From assembly GCA_903891095.1 (NCBI GenBank), contig CAITDI010000017.1, forward strand, positions 1-45,548: 45,548 nt of DNA. The letters are read 5' to 3'. The notes under the pieces are model-generated. The model made no database searches and had not been told where the DNA came from. It saw only the letters and a program-made list of their open reading frames with translations. The translations under genes and the position numbers were made by a program. Source of the DNA: an uncultured bacterium. GTDB lineage: Bacteria > Planctomycetota > Phycisphaerae > Phycisphaerales > SM1A02. This document shows, one piece after another, positions 11,638 through 44,679 of the stretch. The first letter of the stretch is position 1. Each line of letters opens with the position of its first letter.

Positions 11638-12038
11638 GCGACGCGAGGCGTGAAGACCAGAGTTCGCGAGTGCCCCGTGGACGCGAAGTCCCGCACATCG
11701 TGAATGCCCGCAGACCGTGAACGCCCGCTGATCATGAATGCCCGCAGACGCAAGTCTGCGGAACACAGGACGTGGGAGTCCATCGACCCCCCACACAACC
11801 CGTTCCGCAGATTTCGGCTCAGCCTCATCTACGGGCATTCACGGTTCGCAACCACCAGAGGAAGCCGCCGCAGCGGCGACCGCTCAAAACTTGAATGCCC
11901 GCAGACGCAAGTCTGCGGAACACAGGACGTGGGAGTCGATCGAGCTTCCACACAACCCGTTCGCAGCTGTCGGCTTCGCCCCATCCACGGGCATTCACGG
12001 TTTGCGCGGAACACAGGTCGCGGGAGTCCACTCCCCGC
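11638..12038. other. Gene-free, repeat-filled interval after queA
   Basis: About 400 bases between queA and the convergent HExxH gene. I see no credible gene. The left part (11638-11735) has short fragments of the same repeat (GAATGCCCG at 11702; related 'ACGCCCGC' nearby). The rest is two full repeat units, described separately. Reading frames here are open only because the repeat is GC-rich and palindromic. Confidence 0.7.
11736..11997 (+). repeat. Two copies of a 105-bp element with terminal inverted repeats, 52-bp linker
   Basis: Copy 1 is 11736-11840 and copy 2 is 11893-11997, both exactly 105 bp. Each begins GAATGCCCG and ends CGGGCATTC (perfect 9-bp terminal inverted repeats). Just inside the left end is a strong palindrome, CCGCAGAC-GCAA-GTCTGCGG-like. 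The outer about 50 bases at each end are nearly identical between copies and the middle has diverged. The linker 11841-11892 (52 bp) contains its own hairpin (GCCGC-CGCA-GCGGC). The same linker, also 52 bp, occurs inverted at 33791-33842. The layout resembles MITE- or REP-type elements. No coding content is supported. Confidence 0.85.
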
Positions 12039-33689: not shown

Positions 33690-33955
33690 GGGTGCCCGCG
33701 GATGCAGGCGAAGCCGGGAGCTGCGAGCGGGTTGCGTGAGGAGTTGACTCCTACGTCCAGCGTTCCGCAGACTTTCGTCTGCGGGCATTCAAAGTTTGAG
33801 CGGTCGCCGCTGCGGCGGCTTCCTCTGGTGTTTGCGAGCCGTGAATGCCCGTGGATGCAGGCGAAGCCGGGAGCTGCGAGCGGTCGGGCCACATCGTCGA
33901 TCCTGCCAACGGATGCAGCCGCCGCGGCGACCGCTCAAGTCACGCGACCGATCAG
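33690..33955 (-). repeat. Inverted copy of the 105-bp/52-bp repeat array, second unit truncated
   Basis: The reverse-complement form of the array at 11736-11997. A 101-bp element (33690-33790) ends in the palindrome and CGGGCATTC. The conserved 52-bp linker (33791-33842) comes next. A second element then begins GAATGCCCG at 33843 and breaks off near 33893, followed by a degenerate piece of linker to about 33955. The linker length (52) is identical to that at 11841-11892. This fills the gap between the cupin gene and the TIM-barrel gene; no gene is supported here. Confidence 0.82.
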
Positions 33956-33968
33956 ATCACGACGCCCG

Positions 33969-34910
33969 TCACGCCTCGCAGCCGAGGCGCTCGAGCAGTT
34001 TCTTGGTCGCGCGGATGCCGTCGGGCTCGCTCAGGCGCTTGCCTTCGTACTCGATGCCGACTGCGCCGGTGTACTTCGCGTTGCGGACGTGCTCCATGAT
34101 CTTCGGGTAGTCGAGCGTCGTCTCGTTGCCGGCCGCGTCGAAGTCGTAGCTCTTCGCGGAGACGCCCTTCGCGTACGGAACCACGAGGCCCACGTTCTTG
34201 ACGGGATCGTGCTGCACGCCGTTCGCGTCGCGCCAGTTGCCGAAGTCAGGCAGCGTGCCGCACGCGGGATCGTTGACCAGCTTCATCAGATCGACGACCC
34301 ACGAGCCTTCGGAGCTGAGGCCGCCGTGGTTCTCGACGATCACGTTGATGCCGTAGGGCTTGGCGCGCGCGAGGAGCCTGGTGAGTCCGTCGGCGCAGCG
34401 CTTGATCTGCTCGGACGCATCGCCTTCGCCGATCGCGTTCACGCGGATCGAGTGGCAGCCGAGCGCCTTGGCGAGCTCGATCCACTTGACATGGTTCTCC
34501 GCGAACTCGGCACGCGCCTTCTCATCGGCGGCGCCGGCGATACCCTCGCCGTCGCACATGATGAGGACGCTCTTCACGCCGAGGTCGTCGGCGCGCTTCT
34601 TCAGCTCGGCCGCGAGGGTCTTCTCGCCGATGCGCGGGCGGTAGAACGAGTTCACATACTCGACGCGCGAGATGCCGAACTCCTCCTTCGCGAACTTGGC
34701 AAAGTCCATCGGGTCGGCGACCTGCGCGGGGCGCTCCTCGGGCTTGCACAGGCCGAAGCGGCGATGCAGCGACCACTGGGCGAGCGAGATCGGGTTCTTT
34801 GGCGTGGCGTTCACCGCGGGCGGCTCCGTTGTGAGGCTTGCGATCGTGCGCGGCGTGACCGCTGCGAGGGAGGCGAGACCGAAGAGTTGAAGTGCGTCGC
34901 GGCGATTCAT
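33969..34910 (-). CDS. Sugar phosphate isomerase/epimerase-type TIM-barrel protein, Tat signal
   Basis: 313-residue protein of the xylose-isomerase-like (AP endonuclease 2) TIM-barrel family. It starts with a twin-arginine-type signal, 'MNRRDALQLFGLASLAAV', so it is probably exported folded. The barrel shows 'ISLAQWSLHRRF', 'VEYVNSFY', 'CHSIRVNAIG', the metal-site 'NVIVENHGGLSS', 'LPDFGNW' and 'VGIEYEG'. Such planctomycete proteins are usually annotated as sugar isomerases; the substrate is unknown. ATG 34910 directly gives the NRR motif. It lies downstream of the repeat array. Confidence 0.88.
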   Translation of the reverse strand: MNRRDALQLFGLASLAAVTPRTIASLTTEPPAVNATPKNPISLAQWSLHRRFGLCKPEERPAQVADPMDFAKFAKEEFGISRVEYVNSFYRPRIGEKTLAAELKKRADDLGVKSVLIMCDGEGIAGAADEKARAEFAENHVKWIELAKALGCHSIRVNAIGEGDASEQIKRCADGLTRLLARAKPYGINVIVENHGGLSSEGSWVVDLMKLVNDPACGTLPDFGNWRDANGVQHDPVKNVGLVVPYAKGVSAKSYDFDAAGNETTLDYPKIMEHVRNAKYTGAVGIEYEGKRLSEPDGIRATKKLLERLGCEA

Positions 34911-40675: not shown

Positions 40676-40846
40676 TTGCCGCACGGCGGCAGCCAGCAGA
40701 GGCACTTCAGGCGACGTCTTGGCCGAGAAACCAGCCCCGCGAAAGCGGCGTGTTGTCGCATGGGGAGGAGCGCGTGGGCGAGAGCGCATGGGGAGGAGCG
40801 CGTGGGCTTCGCCCCGCCCGACCGCACCAAACACGCAAAAGAAACA
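40676..40846. other. Gene-free stretch between tRNA-Thr and terminator
   Basis: No gene seen. A 22-base segment beginning GCATGGGGAGGAGCGCGTGG occurs twice about 30 bases apart (near 40759 and 40788). It is on the likely 3' UTR side of the minus-strand HEAT gene terminator. Confidence 0.5.
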
Positions 40847-40867
40847 GCCCCGCGCCAAGCGCGGGGC
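40835..40867 (-). terminator. Intrinsic terminator of the HEAT/receiver-like gene
   Basis: 8-bp GC stem (40847-40854 with 40860-40867), a 5-base loop, then on the minus strand TGTTTCTTTTG. It lies about 215 bases past the gene stop at 41082, so the 80-bp tandem repeats fall inside the 3' UTR. Confidence 0.7.
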
Positions 40868-40886
40868 CGTGATTCAACCTTAGAAA

Positions 40887-41082
40887 GCACCAAAGGAAGC
40901 AGCCGCAGCTGCGCCCGCGCCATCACGTCGCGCTCGCGCCGTGCGCACGCTCGCTTTGGCGCGGAAGCACCAAAGGAAGCAGCCGCAGCTGCGCCCGCTC
41001 CATCACGTCGCGCTCGCGCCGTGCGCGCGCTCGCTTTGGCGCGGAAGCACCAAAGGAAGCAGCCGCAGCTGCGCCCGCTCAT
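40887..41082. repeat. 80-bp tandem repeat, about 2.4 copies
   Basis: Units start at 40887, 40967 and 41047, an exact 80-bp period. The third is cut off at the stop codon of the adjacent gene. Units 1 and 2 differ at only a few bases. Each begins GCACCAAAGGAAGCAGCCGC and contains the hairpin GCAGC-CGCA-GCTGC. This start resembles the 52-bp linker of the repeats at 11841 and 33791, with a matched base-pair change in the hairpin. Confidence 0.88.
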
Positions 41083-43265
41083 CACTGAGTGATGAGCTTC
41101 ACAGCCTGCGCCGTGCCCGCGTCGAGCGAACCGTAGAGGCGGCCAGCCGCGTCGGCGTTGGCGCCGGTCGACGAGCCGATCAGTTCGCGGAGCGCCGCGA
41201 GCTGGCGATCATCGGCCTTCGCGCCGGCGGAACGCGCGGCGAGCGCCGCGAGGTCGCACAGCGAGACCTGCTCCTCGCCCGTGGACGAGAGCGCAGCGTC
41301 GATGAGCGCACGCTGGCCGGCGGCCGACGCGTTGAGCGCGATGACCTCGGCGACCATCAGGCGGAGACCGCCCTGCTTCTGGCTGAGCGCGCGCAGGAGC
41401 GCGGGTTCGGCGTCGGCGACGGAGAAGACCTTGTTGCCGCTGAAGGCGATGCCGCGCAGCGACGCGCAGCAGCGAGCCGCGTAGTCGACCGACTCGGCCT
41501 CGTCCATCACGCCACCGGACATGTTCGACATCGCAGCGGTCGCCGCGTTGCGGAAGGTCTCGGCGGGCGCGCCTTCGGTCCACACCATCACCGAGCGATC
41601 GCCGTCGAAGGCGTGGCGCACGGTGGCTTCTTCGAGCGCGCCGGAGATGGCGACGATCGGGCTCGCAGCGGTGAGTCCGCTCGCGTGCACGCGGGCGACG
41701 CTGGCCTTGAGCTCATCGAGCGTGCCGCGCACGATCACGATGTCGACGCCGTCAGCCTTGACGACGTTGGTCTCGAGCTCTTCGAACTGGCCAGCGGACG
41801 CGACGGTCGCGAAGCCAGCGGTCTGGAGCTGCTCGCCGATCGCCTGGCGGTCGGCGTTGCTGCCGCCGAGGATCGCGGCGCGGCTCGAGCCGGTGTTCGA
41901 GATCGCGGAGGCGAGCGTGGGCACCACGCGGAAGTCGCCGGCGAAGCTCTGCTTGGGGCTGCTCGCGGCGATCGCGAGGGCGGCGTCGAGACGCACGCGG
42001 CGGTCGCTGTAGCCGAGCGCCTCGAGCATCGGAGTGCGGCCACCCGAAGCGACGAGCGCGTTGCCGCTCGCGGTGTTGGCGAGCGCGGCGATCGCGTCGC
42101 GGATGAGCGTGGTGTCCTTGGCATCGATCGCCATCGAGAGGACCTCGGAGCAAACCGAGGCGCCCGAGGCGGTCGCGAAGAACTGCGGGCTGTAGCGGCC
42201 GGGCTGCGCATCGGAGCCGAGCGTGTTCTCGCGGCGGAGATCCGACGCGATGAAGATCGCGAGAGCCGACGTGTTGGTCGGGTCGACCGCGAGCGCGCGG
42301 CGCGCAACGGCCATCGCCATCACATCGCAGTAGACGCCGGTCGCGACCTGCTCGGCAACGAGCGAGCCGAAGCCGCCGGAGCTGTCGTGGCTCCAGATGT
42401 TGTTGACGGCGTCGCCGCCGTACGGAACGAGCGACGACTCGCGGTCGAAGAACTTGCGGGCGAGCGCGGTGTACTGCGCGGTCACGTCGCGGGTCGTGCC
42501 ACCGAGCTGCGAGAACGCAGCGTCGCAGGCGGCGCGGACTTCAACCGGGGTCGACGGACGCGCGGCGAGGTCGACGATGAACGGCAGAGCCGTCGGCCAA
42601 CCGATCTCGGCGAGGACGCCGACGACCTTGCGCTGCGAGGTCGGGTCGAGCGAGGTGAGCGACATGCCGAGCGGGAGCACTGCGAAGCGCTTGAGCGCGA
42701 CGAGGTTCTTGGTGGCGGCGAGCTCGGACGCGGGGTCCTTGGCATCGACGACGACCTTGAGGAGCTGCGGCACGGCGTACTCGCCGGCGGCGGCGAGACG
42801 CTCTTCGCCGAGGCGCTGCTCGCGCAGCGTCTTGGAGAGCATGCCGATCGCCTGCGCGATGCGCTGCGGGTTGCGCGCGAGGGCGCGACGGCCGGCCTCG
42901 ACGCGGTTCTCGATCTTGGTGGAGAGGTCGGAGACCCCGCCCATCGCGCGGCTGCGCGCGATCGCCTTGCTCAGGCGGTCGCCGAGATCGGCGCCGTCGA
43001 CGACTTCAGCGAGGTCGGCGTCGGAGACCGAGGCCGAGAGGACTGCTTCGCCAGCGGCCTGCGCGAGGTCGGCCTTGCCGATCAGCACGTAGTGGACGAA
43101 ATCCTGGAAGCTCTTCGAGACGCCCGAGAGATCCTTCTTGGTCTCGGCGGCAGCCGCGTCCGACTGCGCGAACGTGGTCGGAGCCACCGTGAGAAGTGAC
43201 GTCGCGACGAGCATCGCCGACAACGGAAGACGGGCGCGGGAAACGATGAGCGCATGCAAGGACAT
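41082..43265 (-). CDS. Exported HEAT-repeat-like protein with receiver-like domain
   Basis: 727-residue protein. The signal peptide ('SAMLVATSLLTVAPTTFAQ', cleavage near TFA-Q) is followed by an all-helical region. Degenerate HEAT-type units include 'QLLKVVVDAKDPASELAATKNLVAL' and 'RRVRLDAALAIAASSPK'. A Rossmann/receiver-like segment at about 490-590 has 'RAAILGGSNADRQAIGEQLQTAGF', 'DGVDIVIVRGTLDEL' and 'ASPIVAISG'. More helical repeats close the protein. An AGGAG site precedes ATG 43265, and a good minus-strand promoter is at 43334-43363. It is divergent from the cobalamin riboswitch. Probably periplasmic scaffold; no enzyme motif is seen. Confidence 0.8.
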   Translation of the reverse strand: MSLHALIVSRARLPLSAMLVATSLLTVAPTTFAQSDAAAAETKKDLSGVSKSFQDFVHYVLIGKADLAQAAGEAVLSASVSDADLAEVVDGADLGDRLSKAIARSRAMGGVSDLSTKIENRVEAGRRALARNPQRIAQAIGMLSKTLREQRLGEERLAAAGEYAVPQLLKVVVDAKDPASELAATKNLVALKRFAVLPLGMSLTSLDPTSQRKVVGVLAEIGWPTALPFIVDLAARPSTPVEVRAACDAAFSQLGGTTRDVTAQYTALARKFFDRESSLVPYGGDAVNNIWSHDSSGGFGSLVAEQVATGVYCDVMAMAVARRALAVDPTNTSALAIFIASDLRRENTLGSDAQPGRYSPQFFATASGASVCSEVLSMAIDAKDTTLIRDAIAALANTASGNALVASGGRTPMLEALGYSDRRVRLDAALAIAASSPKQSFAGDFRVVPTLASAISNTGSSRAAILGGSNADRQAIGEQLQTAGFATVASAGQFEELETNVVKADGVDIVIVRGTLDELKASVARVHASGLTAASPIVAISGALEEATVRHAFDGDRSVMVWTEGAPAETFRNAATAAMSNMSGGVMDEAESVDYAARCCASLRGIAFSGNKVFSVADAEPALLRALSQKQGGLRLMVAEVIALNASAAGQRALIDAALSSTGEEQVSLCDLAALAARSAGAKADDRQLAALRELIGSSTGANADAAGRLYGSLDAGTAQAVKLITQ

Positions 43266-43376: not shown

Positions 43377-43382
43377 TATACT
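43377..43382 (+). promoter_or_regulatory. -10 hexamer TATACT of the cobalamin riboswitch transcript
   Basis: TATACT places the transcription start at about 43389-43390, exactly where the riboswitch P1 strand begins. Confidence 0.65.
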
Positions 43383-43389
43383 CGCCCCC

Positions 43390-43661
43390 GCCTAGGTGCC
43401 CGAAGAGGATCTTCGGCGCCCGTTCGCGGAAAGCCGCATGCGGGTGAGGGAAGGCGGTGAAAATCCGCCGCGGTCGCGCCGCCGTGACAGGTTGGGAAAC
43501 GCGTCGAAAGACGCGGATCCCGCGAGAGATGGCCCGCTTGCGCGGGCAGCCACTGATCGGTTCGCCGGTCGGGAAGGCGTCGATCGTTCGCCGTGCCTCG
43601 CGCCTGAGCAGCATGCTCCGGAGCCAGACGCGGGACCTGGAGTCGGAAGACCTGCCTAGGC
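43390..43661 (+). promoter_or_regulatory. Cobalamin (adenosylcobalamin-type) riboswitch
   Basis: Long structured leader with the conserved cobalamin aptamer elements in order. The 5' P1 strand is GCCTAGG (43390-43396), followed by GGTGCC. The core is GAGGGAA (43446-43452), then GGCGGTGAAAATCCGCC and GCCGTGACAG. The 'GCCACTG...CGGGAAGGCG' arm is near 43550-43580. The B12 box GGAGTCGGAAGACCTGCC is at 43639-43656 (consensus ..AGTCAGGAGACCTGCC), and the closing P1 strand CCTAGGC is at 43655-43661. The length of about 270 nt is within the range for this class. It lies 88 bases before the ATG at 43750, whose GGAGGAG site sits in a self-complementary CTCC-CGGA-GGAG segment, suggesting control of translation. 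Confidence 0.93.
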
Positions 43662-43749
43662 AACGTCGGTGTCCAGTCGGATGCCGCTGCGCGCTCCCGG
43701 ACGGAGCGCATTTGCCCCCGGGCGCGAGCTCCCGGAGGAGTCTGATGTC

Positions 43750-44679
43750 ATGCGCACGGCGCGCGCGGTTCATTTCATCCTGCTGAGTGCGTGCACCGCG
43801 ACGTGCACCGCGACGAGCGCTCGCGCCGACTCGCCGTTTGCGGCGACGGTCGTCAGCTACGTCGCGGGCACTGGCGCTGCGAACGGCTTTACCAACGCGA
43901 GCGTCGCGCTCGGTTCGCCCGAGAGGTTCACGGGCGAAGGGTTGATCCCGCAGGCCGTGACGCCGTTCCAGCCCGCGTTCCGGCCGAATGAACTCGTGTC
44001 GCTCGGCGTCGGCGGGTCGCTCGTGGTTGCGTTCGACCACGATGTCGTCGACGACCCGCGCAATCCGTTCGGCATCGACCTGCTTGTCTTCGGCAATGCG
44101 TTCTTCACCGACAGCTCGTTTGGCGCGGGCGTGGTCGCGGGGCTTGCGTCCGAAGGCGGCACGATCGCGGTGAGCGCCGATGGCGTGAACTGGACGAGCG
44201 TTCCCGCGCTCGAGGCGGACGGGATGTTCCCCACGCTCGGATATCTCGATGTCGCGCCGTATGCGACGGTCGCGGGCACGGTGCTGAGCGACTTCACGCG
44301 GCCGGTCGATCCCACGATCACGATGAGCGAGCTCGTCGGCGTCGGCTATCGGGGACTGCTCGACGCGTACGCCGGTTCGGGCGGCGGCACGGGCATCGAC
44401 CTCGGCGCACTCGGGCTCAAGTCGATTCGCTACGTGCGCGTGAACGGCCCCGCTGCTTCGGGCATGTCGCCTGAGATCGACGCGTTTGCCGACGTCGCGC
44501 CTGCGCCTGCGAACCCCGACCTCGATGGCGACAGCATCGTCGGCGCGACCGACCTCGCGATGGTCCTCTCGGCGTGGGGCGCGGCAAACAGCCCCGCGGA
44601 TCTCGACGCCAGCGGAACGGTCGGCGCAGGCGACCTTGCGATGGTGCTCTCGGCATGGACCGTGGGAGCGCTCAAGTGA
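43750..44679 (+). CDS. B12-riboswitch-controlled secreted protein with paired dockerin-like tail
   Basis: 309-residue exported protein. The signal peptide ('VHFILLSACTATCTATSARA') is followed by a beta-rich ectodomain of about 220 residues with 'VVSYVAGTGAANGFTNASVALGSPERFTG', 'VSLGVGGSLVVAFDHDVVDDPRNPFGIDLLVFGNAFF', 'VSADGVNWTSVPAL' and 'SIRYVRVNGP', a discoidin/surface-binding-like pattern. Two dockerin/EF-hand units end it ('DLDGDSIVGATDLAMVLSAWG', 'DLDASGTVGAGDLAMVLSAWT'). The ATG has GGAGGAG nine bases upstream and lies directly after a cobalamin riboswitch. The next gene overlaps it by GTGA. I infer a role in corrinoid capture or a B12-responsive surface function; the domain itself is not one I can name. 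Confidence 0.85.
   Translation: MRTARAVHFILLSACTATCTATSARADSPFAATVVSYVAGTGAANGFTNASVALGSPERFTGEGLIPQAVTPFQPAFRPNELVSLGVGGSLVVAFDHDVVDDPRNPFGIDLLVFGNAFFTDSSFGAGVVAGLASEGGTIAVSADGVNWTSVPALEADGMFPTLGYLDVAPYATVAGTVLSDFTRPVDPTITMSELVGVGYRGLLDAYAGSGGGTGIDLGALGLKSIRYVRVNGPAASGMSPEIDAFADVAPAPANPDLDGDSIVGATDLAMVLSAWGAANSPADLDASGTVGAGDLAMVLSAWTVGALK

Follow-up and report, generated by a model that had tools for sequence, protein, structure and literature searches.

An 80-nt tandem repeat behind a planctomycete stop codon as a local cluster of a REP-like dispersed element

What is an 80-nt tandem repeat doing directly behind a stop codon? The question arises in the window analysed here, a 45,548-nt stretch of DNA from an uncultured planctomycete (GTDB lineage Phycisphaerales; SM1A02). 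A sequence-only reading had placed the repeat at 40887–41082, between the stop codon of a HEAT gene and its terminator, and had proposed that it reuses a local linker hairpin, with one compensatory base change, as a structured 3′ UTR. TRF recovered the array at 40885–41085 (period 80, 2.5 copies, 96% matches), with units at 40885–40964, 40965–41044 and 41045–41085, of which the two full ones are 98% identical; its score was 370, versus 90 for the next-best array in the window. The proposed position also stood: the stop codon of a minus-strand gene, called from codon usage at 41082–43214, occupies 41082–41084, and the array lies between it and a terminator-like hairpin of 12 pairs with the T tail TTCTTTTGCG, found by a simple scan on the minus strand at 40844–40870. 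The gene may encode HEAT repeats, an identity weakly supported by a Pfam HEAT_2 match of 17.9 bits, below the cut-off of 27.7; no family matched the gene at E up to 0.001. Rfam likewise gave no gathering-score match over the repeats, its four matches at E up to 1 within 40700–41300 all falling far under the gathering scores. Elsewhere in the window, a cobalamin riboswitch aptamer (51.4 bits) was found at 43377–43673 on the plus strand, upstream of a gene called at 43750.

The 80-nt unit extends beyond the hairpin. It comprises an element of about 36 nt, here called element A, whose sense strand in the array is the minus strand, and a related palindrome that runs the other way, element B. Three copies of element A were matched in a search of the window's own genome with R1, a covariance model built from 38 aligned copies: at 41047–41084 (minus strand, with the R1 match on the plus strand; 58.9 bits), adjoining the stop codon, and at 40967–41004 (minus; 59.1 bits) and 40887–40924 (minus; 54.7 bits). 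Common to all three is the plus-strand core GCAGC-CGCA-GCTGC, which reads as the hairpin GCAGC-TGCG-GCTGC in gene direction. Element B, found with a pattern allowing up to six mismatches, lies tail to tail with A at 40930–40959 and 41010–41039 (both plus), giving the layout A(−)B(+)A(−)B(+)A(−). Like a BIME (as defined in PMC2817692), the array alternates two REP-like units and repeats the pair in tandem; unlike in BIMEs, A and B are not E. coli REPs, and 39 of the 57 element A clusters in the own genome are single copies, 17 hold several copies on one strand and one is an opposite-strand pair (B uncounted). The same pattern found 26 B-like places in own-genome loci, and A and B adjoin each other at other loci too.

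The hairpin with which the array had been compared, GCCGC-CGCA-GCGGC, lies at 11864–11877 rather than at 11841, and does differ from the array hairpin by one compensated base pair. It is itself part of an element A copy at 11852–11889 (minus; R1 match on the plus strand, 60.6 bits) between two convergent gene ends. The window holds another copy of this GCCGC/GCGGC type at 33794–33831 (plus; R1 match on the minus strand, 60.7 bits), which is among the few copies not sense-oriented, and a degenerate copy at 33903–33940 (minus; 28.3 bits), which follows the called gene at 33969–34910 at a distance of 28 nt from its stop codon.

What had been taken for the reuse of a local linker proved instead to be a repeat dispersed throughout the genome. 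Searched as DNA against the own genome, the array returned 56 matches spread over many contigs, and R1 found 82 copies in its 3.6 Mb at E up to 0.001 and 93 at E up to 1. All 16 genus genomes examined carry element A, the copy number running from 3 in G079 to at least 150 in G077, in which 150 candidates were scored and all matched. A search of 181 genomes of the family, with stricter filters that lose weak matches, returned 18: the 16 of the genus and, among the 165 others, G016 and G177 with one copy each. The single match in G016 is weak and looks like chance. That in G177, a member of another genus, is strong (L100, 1501–1536) and lies by eye behind the 3′ end of a partial tRNA-Tyr; since such a fragment suggests the attachment site of an integrated element, an element of this kind may have carried element A across genera. 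In a named sequence collection the exact pattern occurred in ten stretches (four Planctomycetota bacterium, three Phycisphaera sp., one Planctomycetaceae bacterium and two uncultured bacterium), and in viral contigs it had no matches. Of 118 element matches in G083 and G078, 11 start less than 100 nt into a contig; the repeats may therefore interrupt these assemblies, and the copy numbers may be lower bounds.

PMC3733652 and PMC8266576 describe REPs as palindromes of 20–50 nt that carry a GTAG or CGTC tag and lie close to the 3′ ends of genes, the GTAG types being tied to RAYT transposases. In the former they are extragenic palindromes of 20–40 nt whose many copies lie mostly in convergent or codirectional gaps, some supplying a stop codon. 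Element A is a REP in this general sense, being an imperfect palindrome of about 36 nt with 82 copies in its own genome and with only 3 of 130 clusters, counted in four genomes, inside called genes. The array is best explained as a local cluster of a REP-like dispersed element. No earlier description of the element A family was found in one open-access library.

In the gene-sense strand, element A reads TTTGAGCGGTCGCnGC-TGCG-GCn′GCTTCCTYTGGYG, is preceded by a partly conserved CGTR, and mostly has its head TTTGAGCGG towards the gene. Since the GACCGCTCAAA end mostly faces a gene 3′ end, reading element A in gene direction means reverse-complementing the hairpin as first described. The proposal of a structured 3′ UTR fits the position, the copies lying close behind stop codons and tRNA genes and mostly sense; the strand needs correcting, as the minus strand is the relevant one in the window. 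Orientation was counted at loci of four genomes (G000, which is the own genome, G077, G083 and G078), with genes from a purpose-made codon-usage caller and tRNA genes from ARAGORN; these loci were picked for holding copies, so that the numbers describe the copies and not all genes. Among the 130 clusters, those in codirectional gaps were sense in 28 cases versus antisense in 3, and of those in convergent gaps 44 lay closer to the gene whose direction they share, versus 12 closer to the other gene. Of the remainder, 2 were in divergent gaps, 3 inside called genes and 38 had one side unknown. The preference for convergent and codirectional gaps near 3′ ends is thus that of REPs.

Taken by genome, the codirectional sense:antisense and convergent near:far counts were 18:2 and 20:6 in G000, 5:0 and 8:1 in G077, 2:0 and 9:2 in G083, and 3:1 and 7:3 in G078, with p below 0.05 in both tests in G000 and G077 only. 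The median distance from the upstream 3′ end was 11 nt in G000 (47 clusters), 19.5 nt in G077, 20.5 nt in G083 and 68 nt in G078. In G000, 26 of the 47 sense clusters, tRNA genes included, lie within 15 nt of the upstream gene 3′ end, and the TGA of the element's TGAGCGG is the stop codon of a called gene in 4 of 81 copies. Copies also lie behind five G000 tRNA genes (Tyr, Ala, Ser, Leu and Phe), the GAGCGG motif being 6 to 40 nt away.

The claim that the stem is maintained gained support from far more copies than those first compared. All five pairs are intact in 74 of 81 own-genome copies and in 78 of 87 other-genome rows, among which some places are shown twice. Uncompensated changes, which the sequence-only reading had named as evidence against such a stem, do occur, but in few copies (a non-standard pair in 7 of the 81 own-genome rows and in 9 of the 87 others), and most copies are fully paired. 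Double changes at the middle pair occur in 25 of the 76 distinct rows of the own genome and, elsewhere, in 25 of 64 distinct rows. In the fitted alignments 98% of cells pair and none of 500 shuffles reached the covariation score; the number of pairs with double changes and the number of pair types were not above the shuffles, because in these alignments double changes fall in only one pair.

Since the fitted alignments are shaped by the structure, we recounted the pairs on 252 ungapped 34-mers found by a weight matrix from A1. All four Watson–Crick types occur at the middle pair (C-G 126, A-T 82, G-C 30, T-A 3), alongside 4 G-T and 7 unpaired copies. Pair 11–18 is G-C in 241 copies, C-G in 10 and other in 1, and the outer pair 5–24 is G-C in 226, C-G in 12 and other in 14, while the positions between stem and outer pair are mostly mismatched (6–23 paired in 18% of copies, 7–22 in 15%). 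A looser search found six fully paired inner stems (GCCGC, GCAGC, GCGGC, GCGCC, GCTGC and GGCGC) in 169 of 197 matches, the other 28 including chance matches of the loose pattern. One-sided changes, counted over nine pairs in 170 distinct copies, were G-T in 98 cases versus A-C in 10; 87 of the 98 fall in the two outermost pairs, and the five inner pairs gave 7 versus 1. Such an excess of G-T over A-C favours the gene strand as the strand that would fold. In all of these counts the copies are related, and the changes are not independent events.

The loop reads TGCG in 241 of the 252 copies and is closed by a C-G pair in gene direction. Tetraloops of the UNCG motif have the form C(UNCG)G, which TGCG fits, but this identity was set aside, as one copy (TCCG) varies the free position and ten vary otherwise. 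We likewise rejected the double-stranded palindrome CGCAGCTGCG as the conserved feature, since the GCCGC and GCGGC types lose it yet keep the hairpin; integron attC sites and SECIS elements were considered and set aside. Folding energies do not decide between the readings: z-scores were modest, ranging from −0.12 to −3.86 in six single-copy folds on either strand, and the array gave −1.78, with 11 of 200 shuffles folding equally well. For L036, a commonest-type copy folded in gene direction, the optimal structure takes a register that differs from the covarying one.

Orthologous sites are occupied patchily. The gene at 41082–43214 has orthologues in all 16 genus genomes examined, and element A lies behind its stop codon in three species: G000 with three copies, G076 with two, whose stem is GGCGC-TGCG-GCGCC, and G085 with two, the second of which is degenerate and lies beyond a terminator-like hairpin. 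With up to four mismatches allowed, the pattern found no element within 260 nt behind the other 13 orthologues (only about 130 nt in G075, where the contig stops). The gene rlmN (Pfam RlmN_N and Radical_SAM) is followed within 140 nt by the element at 4 of 14 loci (G000, G077, G085 and G083), G076 and G086 having yielded only a paralogue; on the RlmN protein tree (14 rows), which has few supported forks, copy number bears no simple relation to clade. Behind a gene that we take from its C-terminus to be that for pyruvate phosphate dikinase (PPDK), the element is present at 3 of 9 readable loci (G000, G083 and G078; 2 of 11 loci were unreadable), with the stem GCGGC/GCCGC in G000 versus GCCGC/GCGGC in G083, and G084, G080 and G081 carry a relative whose head is TGAGCGCTCG and whose hairpin is a different one. 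At tRNA-Tyr (11 loci), G000, G079 and G083 share GGTCGCCGC-TGCG-GCGGCGACC; G084 has GGCTGCCGC-TGCG-GCGGCAGCC, two compensated pairs away from G000; in G087 one of these two pairs is compensated and the other broken; and G081 has a diverged form. No element was found behind tRNA-Tyr in G080, G088, G077 and G074, and the G085 locus is cut off. Stem differences at the same site may reflect replacement by another copy. The commonest stem type also differs between the loci of different genomes.

We consider it reasonably probable that element A is a REP-like element working as a structured 3′ UTR hairpin. Some activity would copy it in trans, although no enzyme that does so was found, and copies would persist where they come to lie in a 3′ untranslated stretch or a tRNA trailer, be transcribed with the gene and fold as a hairpin. 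Its most likely effect, and our first choice, would be that of a 3′ end structure hindering 3′-to-5′ exonucleases. Where the hairpin begins no more than about 15 nt behind a stop codon, it may in addition hold back the ribosome at termination: for E. coli REPs no more than 15 nt from a stop codon, ribosome stalling has been reported (as cited in PMC12306157). The stop-proximal sense clusters of G000 resemble these; unlike them, element A also occurs behind tRNA genes, where copies cannot act on ribosomes. In the window, A would have joined B tail to tail, and tandem duplication of the two together would have followed in a BIME-like manner. If the RNA reading is true, one planctomycete genus carries a varying set of 3′ UTR modules, and its occupied and empty orthologous sites are a natural experiment both on how a stop-proximal hairpin affects expression and on how REP-like elements spread without an adjoining RAYT gene, a matter that PMC3733652 leaves open for CGTC REPs, which have no dedicated transposase. 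The prevailing sense orientation, tRNA genes included, is a clue to the mechanism.

Retention of the stem for a reason at the DNA level would explain the covariation equally well. Element A could be a purely selfish palindrome, mobile DNA that is recognised as a folded single strand and whose stem is kept by the enzyme that copies it; the 3′ UTR position would then mark where insertions are harmless, which is compatible with the RNA reading. This possibility, the main rival and a real one though less probable than not, draws on the patchy sites (3 of 16 at the window gene, 4 of 14 at rlmN), the different prevailing stem types, the tandem and tail-to-tail arrays, and the range from 3 to at least 150 copies among species of one genus. 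However, harmlessness alone predicts neither the sense bias (28:3) nor the shift within convergent gaps (44:12), and none of the 19 Y1_Tnp transposase loci examined carries element A at E up to 0.001. Another account would join mobility to RNA function. Mobile sense-oriented 3′ end hairpins would insert just downstream of stop codons and of tRNA 3′ ends, oriented with transcription, and would do so by a transcription-coupled or RNA-level route without a RAYT; unrelated genes would thereby acquire one common RNA 3′ module, the stem then being kept by compensatory change. Taken as a whole, we regard this as improbable.

That the hairpin with its pyrimidine tail UUCCUUUGG ends transcription like an intrinsic terminator is quite improbable. 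Like intrinsic terminators, element A is a G+C-rich hairpin behind stop codons, and behind tRNAs as well, and the simple scan scored all three array copies as terminator-like on the minus strand. Unlike theirs, its tail, TTCCTTTGGT, has no real T run (none longer than 3). The stem has five perfect pairs. A stronger, T-tailed hairpin lies downstream of the elements in the window, and by eye 13 of 15 orthologues show a terminator-like hairpin in the 130 nt inspected, none being seen in G076 and G084. No sign was found that the element replaces terminators: T-tailed hairpins are as frequent at gene ends with it (9 of 38) as at those without (33 of 147).

Comparison with the GTAG and CGTC superfamilies, as described in PMC3733652, shows the same short extragenic palindromes near 3′ ends, some giving the stop codon. 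Unlike those, element A is mostly sense to the upstream gene or tRNA, is essentially confined to one genus, and has relatives in which different apical hairpins sit between the shared head and tail. Of 247 copies, 16 have GTAG in the 12 nt preceding GAGCGG (11 of them at −7 to −4), versus 0 in a control stretch; it is enriched, yet confined to a small minority and set off from the stem. GTGG, GTGA or GTAG stands at −7 to −4 in 71 of 247 copies, and by these counts the family may have a degenerate tag of the GTRR type at some distance from the stem. The partly conserved CGTR stands at −8 to −5 from GAGCGG in 78 of 247 copies, and counts within 12 nt, versus the control, were 18 versus 9 for CGTC, 87 versus 18 for CGTG and 24 versus 5 for CGTA. 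CGTC REPs are marked by a CGTC tag at the stem, a stem of 8–9 bp and a CCA tail; element A does not fit this description, given its CGTC counts and a 3′ tail that reads YTGGYG in gene direction.

Y1_Tnp (RAYT-like) genes number two in the own genome, and the family gave 28 matches in 13 of the 16 genus genomes. At the 19 loci examined among these 28, several of them cut by contig ends, no element A was found at E up to 0.001, the nearest approach being two weak matches (E = 0.056 and 0.46); the flanking of a RAYT gene by its element that characterises GTAG REPs and REPtrons was thus not seen. Three genomes that carry element A, one of them 96% complete, gave no Y1_Tnp match. Given the tag mismatch and this lack of association with Y1_Tnp, the element A family is REP-like without known tags. 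It is therefore very improbable that element A is a GTAG-type REP mobilised by the genus's own RAYT transposases, for all that such genes are common in the genus, that the size and conserved internal mismatch resemble those of E. coli REPs (PMC8266576) and that GTAG-like motifs are enriched, since the Y1_Tnp loci lack the element, the own Y1_Tnp genes adjoin other palindromes, carriers occur without a match, and exact GTAG is rare and separated from the stem. The palindromes beside the two own genes, L114 (G000:C117:6565–6897) and L115 (G000:C38:34573–34902), are unrelated to A and read CCGCGCAGTGCCAGGCACTGCGCGG and GGCACGTGCCATGAGGTGCC-like, respectively.

Other genomes hold 16 relatives, 33 to 76 nt long, that have a TTGAGCGCTCGC head and a CTCGCTYTGG-like tail in common and among which there are quite different apical hairpins. 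These relatives, among them L206 behind PPDK in G084, look like a frame with an exchangeable top. A second dispersed family, TGAATGCCCGCAGAC-loop-GTCTGCGGAACACAGG, has 48 own-genome matches at E up to 0.001, including three in the window, at 11735–11830, 11892–11985 and 33701–33791 (the last on the minus strand). By eye, its loops GCAA, GAAA, GAGA and GGAA fit GNRA, and some are a three-base GAA.
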